Shown piece after piece: positions 34,626-38,021 of a stretch of DNA of 38,021 nucleotides (position 1 is its first letter; each line of letters opens with the position of its first letter). Where the stretch lies: NCBI GenBank assembly GCA_016342715.1, contig JAEINW010000021.1, positions 1-38,021 on the forward strand, given 5' to 3'. A model generated the notes under the pieces. It did no database searches, was not told where the DNA came from, and worked only from the letters and a program-made list of their open reading frames with translations. Both the position numbers and the translations under genes were made by a program. The DNA comes from Salinivirgaceae bacterium (lineage in GTDB: Bacteria; Bacteroidota; Bacteroidia; Bacteroidales; SZUA-534).

Positions 34626-34759
34626 AGCCTTTTAAGGCTATTTCTAATATTTTTCATTCATTCAATATGTGTTAATAAAGGCTGAAAGCCTTTTATATCA
34701 AAACTTGGGGCTTCGCCCCAAGGCTATTAACCCAAATTGATTCACCCTGTAGGGGTGAA
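34626..34759. repeat. Hairpin array B
   Basis: In the gap between the NuoEF fusion and the Fe-S flavoprotein gene: AGCCTT-TT-AAGGCT (34626-34639), AAGGCT-GAA-AGCCTT (34678-34692), CTTGGGGC-TTC-GCCCCAAG (34704-34722) and TTCACCC-TGTAG-GGGTGAA (34741-34759). Distances between the last three (26 and 37 bp) are identical to arrays C and D. The last palindrome ends 7 bp before the NuoEF stop codon. Confidence 0.85.
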
Positions 34760-34765
34760 ACCGTA

Positions 34766-37114
34766 CTATACAATTTTAACCGCATCAACGGGACAAATTT
34801 GTCGGCAAATATCACATTTTACACACAATTCATTATCTATACTGTGAATCTCATAAGGTTCACTTTTAATAGCATCAACTGGGCAACGCTGGGCACATTT
34901 TGTACAACCAATGCAAGAGTCTTCAATTTCGTATTTTATAATATCCAAACACTTGCCTGTTGGACATTTTCCCTTTATATGTGCCTCATATTCGTGCCTG
35001 AAATACTTTAAGGTTGATAACACCGGATTTGGAGCTGTTTTGCCCAAGCCACAAATACTACCTTTTTTAGTTTGATACGCCAATTTTTCTAGTTTATCCA
35101 AATCATCCATAATCCCTTTACCAGATGATATTTTTTCCAGAATTTGTAACATTCGTTTGGTTCCAACCCTACAAAAAGTGCATCTTCCACATGATTGGTC
35201 TTGAGTAAATGACAAGAAATATTTTGCAATATCAACCATACAATCGGTTTCATCTAATACAATTAAACCGCCCGATCCCATCATGGCACCCACTTCTTTC
35301 AGCGAATCAAAATCGATGGGTGTATCCATTAATTCTGCTGGAATACAACCGCCAGAAGGACCTCCAATTTGAACGGCTTTAAATTTTTTCCCATTGGGAA
35401 TTCCACCTCCAATATCTTCAATAATTGATCGAATGGTCACGCCCATAGGCACTTCAATTAACCCACCACGATTAATTTTTCCGGCCAATGCAAATACTTT
35501 AGTTCCTTTGCTTTTAGCAGTGCCAATGGCAGAAAAACCTTCAGCTCCATTTTTAATGATCCATGAAACCAAGGAGAACGTTTCCGTATTATTAATCAAG
35601 GTTGGCTTTTCCCACAAACCGCTTTCTGCCGGATATGGCGGACGCATTTTTGGTAAGCCCCTATTTCCTTCAATGGAAGCGATTAAAGCTGTTTCTTCTC
35701 CACAAACAAAGGCTCCGGCTCCTTCAAACACTTCCATATCAAATGAAAAGTCTGAACCTAAAATATTATTTTCCAGCATTCCTTTTTGCTTGCAAATTTC
35801 TATGCCTTCTTTTATTCTTGTTACTGCCAAAGGATACTCAGCCCGAATGTAAAAATAGCCTTTGCTTGCTCCAACTGCAAGACCTGCAATAAGAACACCT
35901 TCAATTACTCTGTAAGGATAGGATTCTAAAAGCATCCGATCCATAAAAGCACCAGGGTCTCCCTCATCGCCATTACAGATAACATATTTTTTCTCAGCAT
36001 GTGCATCTTTAACCAATTGCCATTTAATGCCCGATTTAAAACCTCCACCCCCTCTTCCTTGCAAACCACTTTCATTAACAATATCAATAATTTGCTGTGG
36101 CGAATATTCATTTATACATTTTCTCAAGCCATCAAATCCACCCAAATTAATGTATTCATCAATATCTGATGGATTAATTTCACCCCTAAATTCGGTTGCA
36201 ATACTCACTTGACTATCAATAAATTCAGAAATCGGTGAAGACTTTTCATCTGAATTATAACGTTTAATCGATTTAGGCAAGTCGCTAATCACATAATCCT
36301 CAAAAGAACTTAGCAACTTTGCTTTTATTTTCTCAATAGGTTTTTCGGATTTAAAATGATGATAAATAATCTGACTTACTTCATCGGGTTTTATTTTAGT
36401 ATAAAAAGTGGTTTTTTCATCTGGTTTATGAACTTCTAACATGGGAACCTGATTGCAAATTCCCACACAACCCACATGTTTTACATCTACATTTATTTGA
36501 CTTGAATTTAAGGTGCTTTCCAATGCTTCTTTAACCTCTTTACTGCCACTGGCCACACAACATGAGCCTAAGCCAATTCGTATTTCTCCTTGAACTGCAC
36601 TATTTGTTTTTTTGATGTTTGAAACCTTAGTTGCTAACTTTTTGTCTTTCGATTTAAAATCCTTTATAATATCACCAACTTTTTCGGTGGTTACATGCCC
36701 ATAGGTAACTTCATCAATTTGAACAACTGGAGCAATGGTGCAGCAACCCAAGCATGCTACTTTTTCAACCGTAAATAATTTATCAGTATCCGTATCGCTG
36801 GCTCCTTCAATTTTTAATTCTCGTTTAAAGGCATCATAAACCTGCGTTGCTCCTTTTACATGACAAGCTGTGCCAATACATACTTTTATAATATGTTCAC
36901 CAACCGGACTGTGCCGGAATTGCGAATAAAATGTAGAAATACCTGTTAATCTTGATGCAGAAATATCGGTGGTTTCGGCAACTCTTTTCAGCGCAACTTC
37001 AGGCAAATATTTAAATTCATTCTGAATAGCTTGAAGAATAGGAATGGCATGATTTACCGAGCTTCCAATCTCTGTGATTATTTGATCAACTTTATTTATA
37101 ATTTTCTGGCTCAT
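34766..37114 (-). CDS. NuoE-NuoF fusion: NAD(P)H dehydrogenase subunit with extra ferredoxin domains
   Basis: 782-aa soluble diaphorase. Residues ~1-155: NuoE/HydC-like [2Fe-2S] thioredoxin fold ('CIGTACHVKG', 'ACLGCCTIAP'). ~170-270: a second thioredoxin-like [2Fe-2S] domain ('GLGSCCVASG', 'CVGICNQVP'). ~285-640: NuoF core with FMN/NADH motifs 'GLQGRGGGGFKSGIKWQ', 'ICNGDEGDPGAFMDR' and 'GAGAFVCGEETALIASIEG', and the N3 [4Fe-4S] ligands 'SCGRCTFCRVGTKR' plus 'SICGLGK'. ~715-782: two ferredoxin-type [4Fe-4S] clusters ('CIGCTKCAQRCPVDAI', 'CVKCDICRQICPVDAV'). This matches the HydB/HndC-type NADH-oxidising subunit of hydrogenases or formate dehydrogenases. Paired with the Fe-S flavoprotein gene downstream; no hydrogenase or dehydrogenase catalytic subunit lies in the window. 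Confidence 0.93.
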   Translation of the reverse strand: MSQKIINKVDQIITEIGSSVNHAIPILQAIQNEFKYLPEVALKRVAETTDISASRLTGISTFYSQFRHSPVGEHIIKVCIGTACHVKGATQVYDAFKRELKIEGASDTDTDKLFTVEKVACLGCCTIAPVVQIDEVTYGHVTTEKVGDIIKDFKSKDKKLATKVSNIKKTNSAVQGEIRIGLGSCCVASGSKEVKEALESTLNSSQINVDVKHVGCVGICNQVPMLEVHKPDEKTTFYTKIKPDEVSQIIYHHFKSEKPIEKIKAKLLSSFEDYVISDLPKSIKRYNSDEKSSPISEFIDSQVSIATEFRGEINPSDIDEYINLGGFDGLRKCINEYSPQQIIDIVNESGLQGRGGGGFKSGIKWQLVKDAHAEKKYVICNGDEGDPGAFMDRMLLESYPYRVIEGVLIAGLAVGASKGYFYIRAEYPLAVTRIKEGIEICKQKGMLENNILGSDFSFDMEVFEGAGAFVCGEETALIASIEGNRGLPKMRPPYPAESGLWEKPTLINNTETFSLVSWIIKNGAEGFSAIGTAKSKGTKVFALAGKINRGGLIEVPMGVTIRSIIEDIGGGIPNGKKFKAVQIGGPSGGCIPAELMDTPIDFDSLKEVGAMMGSGGLIVLDETDCMVDIAKYFLSFTQDQSCGRCTFCRVGTKRMLQILEKISSGKGIMDDLDKLEKLAYQTKKGSICGLGKTAPNPVLSTLKYFRHEYEAHIKGKCPTGKCLDIIKYEIEDSCIGCTKCAQRCPVDAIKSEPYEIHSIDNELCVKCDICRQICPVDAVKIV

Positions 37115-37140
37115 TTTATATCATTTCACTGTTATGTTTC

Positions 37141-37342
37141 AGACTTTCAGTCTGATTTAGGTGCTTTGCTCCTTTCTAGGGGTTTCACCCCTAGTTTTGC
37201 TGTTGCAGCCTTTCAGGCTACGAATTCTTTCTAAAACATTAAGTTTTACAAATCATTAGAAAGGCTGAAGGCCTTAAACAATATAACTTGGGGCAACGCC
37301 CCAAGAAAATCTGTAGTAATACATTCACCCTGTAGGGGTGAA
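37141..37342. repeat. Hairpin array C (six palindromes)
   Basis: Fills the 231-bp gap between the RAYT-like gene and the NuoEF fusion. In order: AGACT-TTC-AGTCT (37141-37153), CTAGGGG-TTTCA-CCCCTAG (37176-37194), GCAGCC-TTTCA-GGCTAC (37205-37221, central AGCC/GGCT stem), AAGGC-TGAAG-GCCTT (37261-37275), CTTGGGGC-AAC-GCCCCAAG (37287-37305) and TTCACCC-TGTAG-GGGTGAA (37324-37342). The last sits 4 bp from the RAYT stop codon; the first lies 27 bp upstream of the NuoEF start codon. Confidence 0.9.
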
Positions 37343-37345
37343 ACA

Positions 37346-37801
37346 TTAATTCCAAAAATATTTTGCATCGTACTCAATAATATCATATCGACTTATAAAT
37401 TCTTCAATCTCTTCTTTATATGTTATCCTTTTGTGATGTTCCTCTTGATTTTTAATATAATTCTTAACTGTCTCTAATTTTGAACTACTAACAGAAAAGG
37501 CTCCATATCCTATTTGCCATGTAAACTTTAAACTTCCTCCTTCAATCTCTTTCATCCATTTTGAAGAAGATTTTTTTATTTCCTCGACAATCTTGGCTAA
37601 AGTAAAATTCTTGGACAAGCGAAATAAAACATGGATATGATCAGAAACAGAATTAATTGTTATTGCTGAACTTTCATATTTTTTAAGGATACCAGCCAAA
37701 TAGGCATGTAATTGATCTTGTATTTTTGGAATAATAAAAGGATACCTCTCCTTAGTTCCAAATGTAAGATGTACATATAATTGTGATAAAGATTGCCCCA
37801 T
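37346..37801 (-). CDS. IS200-type (Y1) tyrosine transposase, RAYT-like
   Basis: 151-aa single-domain HUH/Y1 transposase. The HUH motif is in 'SDHIHVLFRLSKN' (~55-65) and the catalytic Tyr in 'ETVKNYIKNQEEHHKR' (~116). 'GYGAFSVSSSKLE' and a C-terminal 'YDAKYFWN' are typical of the small IS200-like proteins of Bacteroidota. It cleaves and joins single-stranded DNA at hairpins in characterised relatives. There is no tnpB, and no ordinary IS200 left/right end is visible. Instead the gene is flanked on both sides by near-identical 200-bp hairpin arrays, as RAYT genes are flanked by REPs. All catalytic residues are present, so the protein is probably active. Reading frame intact, ATG start. Confidence 0.9.
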   Translation of the reverse strand: MGQSLSQLYVHLTFGTKERYPFIIPKIQDQLHAYLAGILKKYESSAITINSVSDHIHVLFRLSKNFTLAKIVEEIKKSSSKWMKEIEGGSLKFTWQIGYGAFSVSSSKLETVKNYIKNQEEHHKRITYKEEIEEFISRYDIIEYDAKYFWN

Positions 37802-37817
37802 AATTTACTTTTGTTTC

Positions 37818-38020
37818 AGACTTTCAGTCTAAGTTATATGTTTTTCACTTTATCTAGAGGCTTCTCCCCTAGTTTTACTGTTGCAGCCTTTCAGGCTACG
37901 ATTTCTTTCTAAAACATTTAGTTCTACAAATCATTAGAAAGGCTGAAGGCCTTAAACAATATAACTTGGGGCAACGCCCCAAGAAAATCTGTAGTAATAC
38001 ATTCACCCTGTAGGGGTGAA
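37818..38020. repeat. Hairpin array D (second copy of array C)
   Basis: Same six modules as array C: 37818-37830, 37854-37872, 37883-37899, 37939-37953, 37965-37983 and 38002-38020. From the second palindrome onward every position is exactly 678 bp to the right of array C. From about 37881 to the window end I count three mismatches in ~140 bp against array C; the first third is more diverged (the second palindrome is CTAGAGG...CCCCTAG, with one unpaired base). The first palindrome is 17 bp upstream of the RAYT start codon. Confidence 0.9.
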
Positions 38021-38021
38021 A

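Follow-up and report, generated by a model that had tools for sequence, protein, structure and literature searches.

The Locus

We analysed a window of 38,021 nt (the whole stretch of DNA under study), whose last base is also the end of contig C352 in an assembly of 5.54 Mb and 358 contigs. Close to this end lies a gene for a 151-aa Y1 (HUH) transposase, set between two arrays of six palindromes, C and D, the latter stopping at the contig end (table 1). The arrays adjoin the transposase as a 169-nt direct repeat (37175-37343 and 37853-38021; spacing 678) that is 96% identical. Seven of the 169 nt are mismatched, three of them in the last 141 nt, the outer 43 nt of the arrays are 79% identical, and the copies also differ by one indel. 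Five of the six palindromes are offset by exactly 678 bp and the outermost by 677. The first-pass annotation, which had described C and D as direct copies with five of six palindromes at 678 bp and about three mismatches over the last ~140 bp, is borne out on both counts. Within 37114-37155, the last hairpin of array C sits in the leader of a large dehydrogenase-like gene (34766-37114), whose expression it could influence.

Table 1. Transposase gene, hairpins and repeat units in window coordinates; UP and DN denote the two ends of the putative element (UP-gene-DN)
Feature	Position	Strand	Remark
Gene-less b-c unit (CTTGGGGC hairpin, 12-nt linker, AGCCT hairpin)	32720..32768		
Gene-less DN-type unit	34677..34760		75% identical to DN end of element
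Array C	37132..37343		Read as tail-to-head junction; in gene orientation DN end (a'-b'-c'), then UP end (c-b-a)
C, UP hairpin a (TCAGACT/AGTCTGA)	37139..37155		~25 nt before start codon of gene 34766-37114
C, UP hairpin b (CTAGGGGT/ACCCCTAG)	37176..37194		
C, 12-nt linker of UP unit (gcaacagcaaaa on - strand)	37195..37206	-	
C, UP hairpin c (AGCCT-gaa-AGGCT on - strand)	37207..37219		
C, AT-rich segment of the putative tail-to-head junction (GTTTTAGAAAG-type inverted repeat)	37220..37261		Element ends putative
C, DN hairpin c' (AGGCT-gaa-GGCCT)	37262..37274		
C, 12-nt linker of DN unit (taaacaatataa)	37275..37286	+	TAA last before hairpin foot
C, DN hairpin b' (CTTGGGGC-3-GCCCCAAG)	37287..37305		
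C, DN hairpin a' (TTCACCC/GGGTGAA)	37324..37342		Adjoins transposase stop codon
Y1 (HUH) transposase gene, TnpA_Y1 subclass 1.2 signature (DHIH, WQ, Y-x3-Q-x2-HH)	37346..37801	-	151 aa
Array D	37809..38021		Read as same junction type as C, 678 bp further on; stops at contig end
D, UP hairpin a	37816..37832		14 nt from transposase start codon
D, UP hairpin b	37854..37872		Degenerate
D, UP hairpin c	37885..37897		
D, DN hairpin c'	37940..37952		
D, DN hairpin b'	37965..37983		
D, DN hairpin a'	38002..38020		Last 20 bases of contig

Classification of the Transposase

The Pfam Y1_Tnp match spans the whole domain (E 4e-26) and the catalytic motifs, HUH (DHIH) and Tyr115, are intact, in line with the complete HUH/Y1 domain claimed at first pass. 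The accompanying label "RAYT-like" does not stand. The protein scores above the cut-off with the IS200 model NF033573 (62 bits against 55) and below it with the RAYT model NF047646 (25 bits against 80), while its Tyr motif, YIKNQEEHH, is of the class-1 form Y-x3-Q-x2-HH in place of Y-x3-NP. Model failure and the absent Y-x3-NP together rule out a RAYT or TnpA_REP (class 2) enzyme. Residues H55, H57, W95, Q96, Y115, Q119, H122 and H123 are invariant across 22 sequences (the window transposase and 21 relatives). The best solved relatives of the transposase profile are TnpA of IS608 (8e-13) and TnpA of ISDra2 (5e-11; named by entry code), and the transposase chains among the PDB profile matches are all of IS200 type. 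Judged by its sequence, the window enzyme is a class-1 Y1 transposase with the signature of TnpA_Y1 subclass 1.2, and no RAYT. That signature was defined in a survey as DH[IV]H, WQ and Y-x3-Q-x2-HH, for a subclass reported as low-copy, occurring for the most part in Cyanobacteria and Bacteroidetes, usually lacking the terminal structures of IS200 and with REP given as "no" (Quentin et al. 2018, PMC6006769).

A Three-Hairpin End Design in Relatives

We compared the flanks of 80 named relatives, mostly from Bacteroidota and PVC with some from Acidobacteriota, Fibrobacterota, Calditrichota and Ignavibacteria. Their 300-nt flanks hold 10.1 hairpins per kb, against 0.93 in shuffled sequence and 1.86 in intergenic DNA more than 1 kb away at the same loci. 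A hairpin lies beside the gene in 80 of 80 loci and on both sides in 67, and hairpins also abound next to the transposase gene in relatives from the same order. Most loci follow a single design, in which hairpin c (5 bp, loop mostly GAA, AAC or AAA) is followed by a 12-nt linker, hairpin b (8 bp) and, ~20-28 nt further on, hairpin a near the gene, the whole being mirrored on the opposite side. When linkers of 0-39 nt were allowed, the length was exactly 12 in 27 of 31 two-hairpin motifs of the host genome (0 in shuffles); forward matches in the flanks of 111 genes numbered 76 at 12 nt, against 14 at 11 and 11 at 13, and no other length had more than 4. Motif density falls from 1.13 per kb within 500 nt of the gene to 0.008 per kb beyond 1 kb, a 136-fold difference.

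The linker ends in [TC]A[GA], with A24 present in 63 of 63 units, R25 in 62 and the foot pair C26-G44 in all 63, letters that were no selection criterion; GTAG stands at the hairpin foot in one unit of 63. Stem sequences differ between genomes with pairing kept, although the covariation counts show only free variation of stem sequence, because stem pairing was itself a selection criterion. UP and DN units are more alike within one element (identity 0.75) than across loci (0.55), a difference reached in 0 of 5000 permutations, and the more similar two proteins are, the more similar are their units (Mantel r 0.42). The window and two loci from different families (L107 and L108), with proteins 62-65% identical, have near-identical b hairpins of the CTTGGGGC type, and hairpin a is common to the window and L108.

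The strict motif is absent at 44 of the 131 genes in the tree, which fall partly in a sister clade and partly have degraded or divergent ends. Nearly all of 20 sampled weaker homologues form this sister clade, flanked by hairpins of another kind, and none of the 20 has the strict 12-nt design. The clade (L245-L264) has the Y-x3-Q-x2-HH motif and carries simple short palindromes, often in tandem, such as ACCGCgtaGCGGT with a period of ~26 at L254. As a separate observation, the protein of L209 is ~90% identical to those of L174 and L192 across MAGs labelled Deltaproteobacteria and Verrucomicrobia/Akkermansia, reflecting either recent transfer or a binning error.

Copy number of the units tracks the gene, a relation that the first-pass annotation had singled out for checking. 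We trained a covariance model (R1) on the named loci and searched with it 198 genomes of the order, partly non-independent and with known gene status, a close homologue being defined by E below 1e-33 and "without" by none at 1e-12. Units occurred in 29 of 30 genomes with a close homologue (median 13.5 among the matches listed, up to ~32 per genome) and in 19 of 100 genomes without (median 0; Fisher p 4e-15), with 34 of 68 for genomes with weaker homologues only. Some genomes have many units and no detectable Y1_Tnp gene (at least 22 units in G196, 13 in G163 and 8 in G124); these may be orphan repeat populations, or the gene may have been lost in assembly. Overall, the observations support that the arrays belong to the transposase.

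Repeats Elsewhere in the Host Genome

The complete 141-nt core of C and D occurs at two places only in the host genome, with ~40 other partial matches, mostly of ~45 nt and mainly of the c-b part. Related elements are dispersed in this genome; the complete core, whose copies the first-pass annotation proposed to count, is not. Counts for the host rest on ~1 Mb of stretches, a 0.63-Mb unbiased subset and model searches (matches listed). The hairpins are no product of chance: strict ones occur at 0.66 per kb in non-coding and 0.02 per kb in coding DNA of the host sample, the Markov-shuffled non-coding control giving 3 in 151 kb and the composite motif 0 matches in the shuffled host genome. The unbiased subset holds 4 strict and 9 relaxed units, which extrapolates to ~35-80 per genome.

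Other host repeat families (TATGGCT/CTTAGGGC, and AAGGCT/CTTGGGGC with a long third hairpin) obey the same hairpin grammar. In two abundant families (L007-L030 and L066-L085), c, the 12-nt linker and b are joined by a long third hairpin, GCGATGCA...TGCATCGC or GGGTGCA...TGCACCC; no intact cognate transposase was identified for either family. A second intact transposase lies on contig C77 and three pseudogene copies on C70, C83 and C114. The pseudogenes (L033, L034 and L035) have the same stops and an insert in common, as well as hairpin ends, and stand in different contexts; they end in GTGATCC, as does one of the two abundant families. Since the same stops and insert recur in different contexts, this dead subclass-1.2 gene multiplied after its inactivation, a hint that it was mobilised in trans or inside a larger repeat.

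Gene-less Elements, Deletion Derivatives and Tandem Copies

Gene-less six-hairpin elements of ~280 bp occur at unrelated sites in genome G128, each with c-b-a followed by a'-b'-c' between AT-rich terminal stretches that are inverted relative to each other. In two elements of G089 (L277 and L278), a deleted transposase has left its first codons, its last codons or both between UP and DN. When L192 and L209, from different MAGs, are compared, homology around the gene extends from -92 to +90 and the remaining context mostly differs, the pattern that a UP-gene-DN unit would leave. Searches for a clean filled and empty site pair for gene-less elements among Flavobacterium, Ignavibacteria, other pairs and the genus mates of G128 returned none.

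Where a gene has a further copy within 3 kb, the two stand head to tail (8 of 8 cases, 6 loci). At L202, two identical genes with an exact period of 676 bp are joined by a'-b'-c'/c-b-a, and the same junction stands again before host DNA. The window arrays, in gene orientation, have this order too (period 678), opposite to the c-b-a/a'-b'-c' of gene-less elements, and UP-gene-DN-UP is also seen in unrelated assemblies (e.g., L108, L117 and L202). Because their order matches that of the L202 junction, we read C and D as probable tail-to-head junctions of a 678-bp tandem element; a further gene copy would be expected beyond the contig end, which falls where the next copy would begin. The array as the mobile or maintained unit, proposed at first pass, was dropped on account of the opposite hairpin order of the gene-less elements; what stands is that the arrays belong to the transposase, the basic unit being the three-hairpin end, two per dispersed element. 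Nor is the ongoing conversion once invoked for the identity of C and D needed, given the tandem reading.

A Proposed Single-Strand Element

HUH/Tyr transposases bind hairpins on single strands, use guide bases at the hairpin foot and form single-strand circles whose junction abuts both ends. In this context, we put forward that the gene and its arrays probably form one small mobile element (at roughly three chances in four), which on the sequence comparisons would be a single-strand transposon related to IS200, with inverted ends of three hairpins each, and would spawn REPIN/MITE-like repeats. The proposal draws on direct observations, namely the end design and its conservation, the linkage to the gene, the dispersal of gene-less copies, the deletion derivatives and the tandem junctions. 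Each end would comprise c (5 bp), the linker of constant length (12 nt) with [TC]A[GA] last, b (8 bp), ~20-28 nt and a, and the opposite end would carry the same composite inverted. If it works like TnpA_IS608 and TnpA_REP, the HUH/Tyr enzyme would bind these hairpins on single-stranded (lagging-strand or displaced) DNA, with the [TC]A[GA] bases at the foot of hairpin b as the putative guide. The element might then be cut and rejoined via a single-stranded circle, and insertion beside an existing end would give head-to-tail multimers, UP-(gene-DN-UP)n, in which the window arrays, spaced by 678 bp, would be two of the DN-UP junctions. Copies that lost the gene by internal deletion would be left as UP-DN six-hairpin elements, possibly moved in trans, which would accumulate as intergenic palindrome families.

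Intact gene copy number is low, plasmid carriage amounts to 2 records and no phage carriage of the transposase gene was found. Present activity may be low, since intact genes are few, plasmid carriage is rare and phage carriage was not found. The same scarcity could be read otherwise, as a domesticated RAYT/REP-like system inherited vertically, in which the gene is nearly immobile and the repeats are maintained by the enzyme, to the benefit of the host or to their own, as proposed for RAYTs/REPINs. One or few intact genes per genome, a conserved genomic position in Flavobacterium (L146 and L153), the absence from phages, the rarity on plasmids and two inverted units resembling a REPIN/BIME layout all agree with such a system, which we consider possible if unlikely. 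However, the identical tandem genes of L202, the internal-deletion derivatives L277/L278 and the confinement of L192/L209 homology to UP-gene-DN speak of a transposon-like past, and the enzyme is of class 1, not class 2.

It is rather improbable that the transposase is a passenger and that unequal homologous recombination between older dispersed arrays duplicated C and D. Such recombination can yield direct array repeats on both sides of a gene, and tandem periods do vary between loci, from ~676 to 1104; yet it leaves the cognate inverted ends, the 12-nt rule and the dispersal at unrelated sites unexplained, although it could still aid tandem growth. We hold it very unlikely that C/D near-identity is an assembly artefact, a false duplicate of one array. 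Array D does end exactly at the contig end and repeats often break this assembly, but C and D disagree at 7 of 169 positions, an indel separates them, their outer stretches are only 79% identical, and UP-gene-DN-UP recurs in the unrelated assemblies mentioned above. Least credible of all is a regulatory role for the host, with the arrays acting as bidirectional terminators or mRNA stabilisers and lying beside the gene by chance. This would suit strongly intergenic, GC-rich stem-loops and the place of array C within the leader of gene 34766-37114, but not the 136-fold enrichment beside one gene family, stems specific to each transposase lineage or the lack of any Rfam match, a terminator function being rejected on T-content (of 63 units, only 2 have at least 5 T among the 8 nt that follow hairpin b).

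Relation to Known Systems

Returning to the mobile element as the favoured reading, its closest solved enzymes are those of IS200/IS605 (IS608 and ISDra2), with which it has a single-domain class-1 Y1 transposase in common. IS200/IS605 elements have hairpin ends with guide bases at the foot, form circle junctions, transpose through single-stranded circles and insert 3' of a tetra- or pentanucleotide. They carry one subterminal imperfect hairpin per end, on the same strand and not inverted, whereas here there are three per end, inverted, and no tnpB. The nearest published ideas are REPtrons/REPINs and TIRtrons, both with class-2 enzymes. RAYT/REP systems (REPtrons, class 2 TnpA_REP) and REPINs likewise combine an HUH/Tyr enzyme with cognate inverted palindromes, flanking the gene and dispersed, and with a short motif at the 5' foot of the hairpin. 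In contrast, the present enzyme is of class 1 without Y-x3-NP, each end has three hairpins and a 12-nt linker, gene copies occur in tandem, and the foot motif is [TC]A[GA] rather than GTAG/GTGG. In TIRtrons, a Y1 gene (TIRYT) is bounded by terminal inverted repeats, as here, which form moderate repeat families and occur as dimers or clusters (Di Nocera et al. 2013, PMC3733652). TIRYTs, however, are RAYT homologues (class 2), unlike the window enzyme; many TIRs carry GGGGWSAS and no three-hairpin, 12-nt design is described there (PMC3733652).

The window enzyme resembles TnpA_Y1 subclass 1.2 in motifs, length (~150 aa), low copy number and occurrence in Bacteroidetes (PMC6006769). The three-hairpin design in subclass 1.2 relatives of many phyla, with hairpins at 80 of 80 loci, contrasts with the survey table, which gives neither REPs nor typical IS200 ends for the subclass, as a description and not as a criterion on sequence; members are moreover found in PVC, Acidobacteriota and other groups. 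In the open-licence literature, we met no account of repeats in subclass 1.2. On balance, we lean toward a separate class of single-strand transposons that crosses phyla, in which Y1 transposases of class 1 go with inverted ends of three hairpins at the 12-nt spacing and [TC]A[GA] at the foot would be the guide. Such elements would make six-hairpin non-autonomous repeats and account for many intergenic GC palindromes of Bacteroidota and PVC.

Subclass 1.2, described in the survey without repeats or IS properties, would thereby gain a candidate recognition substrate and a testable mechanism. The rigid hairpin-12-hairpin layout with its invariant foot amounts to a direct prediction of how the enzyme reads single-stranded DNA, and hairpin order distinguishes an element (UP-DN) from a multimer junction (DN-UP) in raw sequence. 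The elements also offer a possible origin for the palindromic intergenic repeats of Bacteroidota and PVC genomes, which break assemblies as well. In the host, contigs often end within 300 nt of a unit, and the repeats fragment the assembly.
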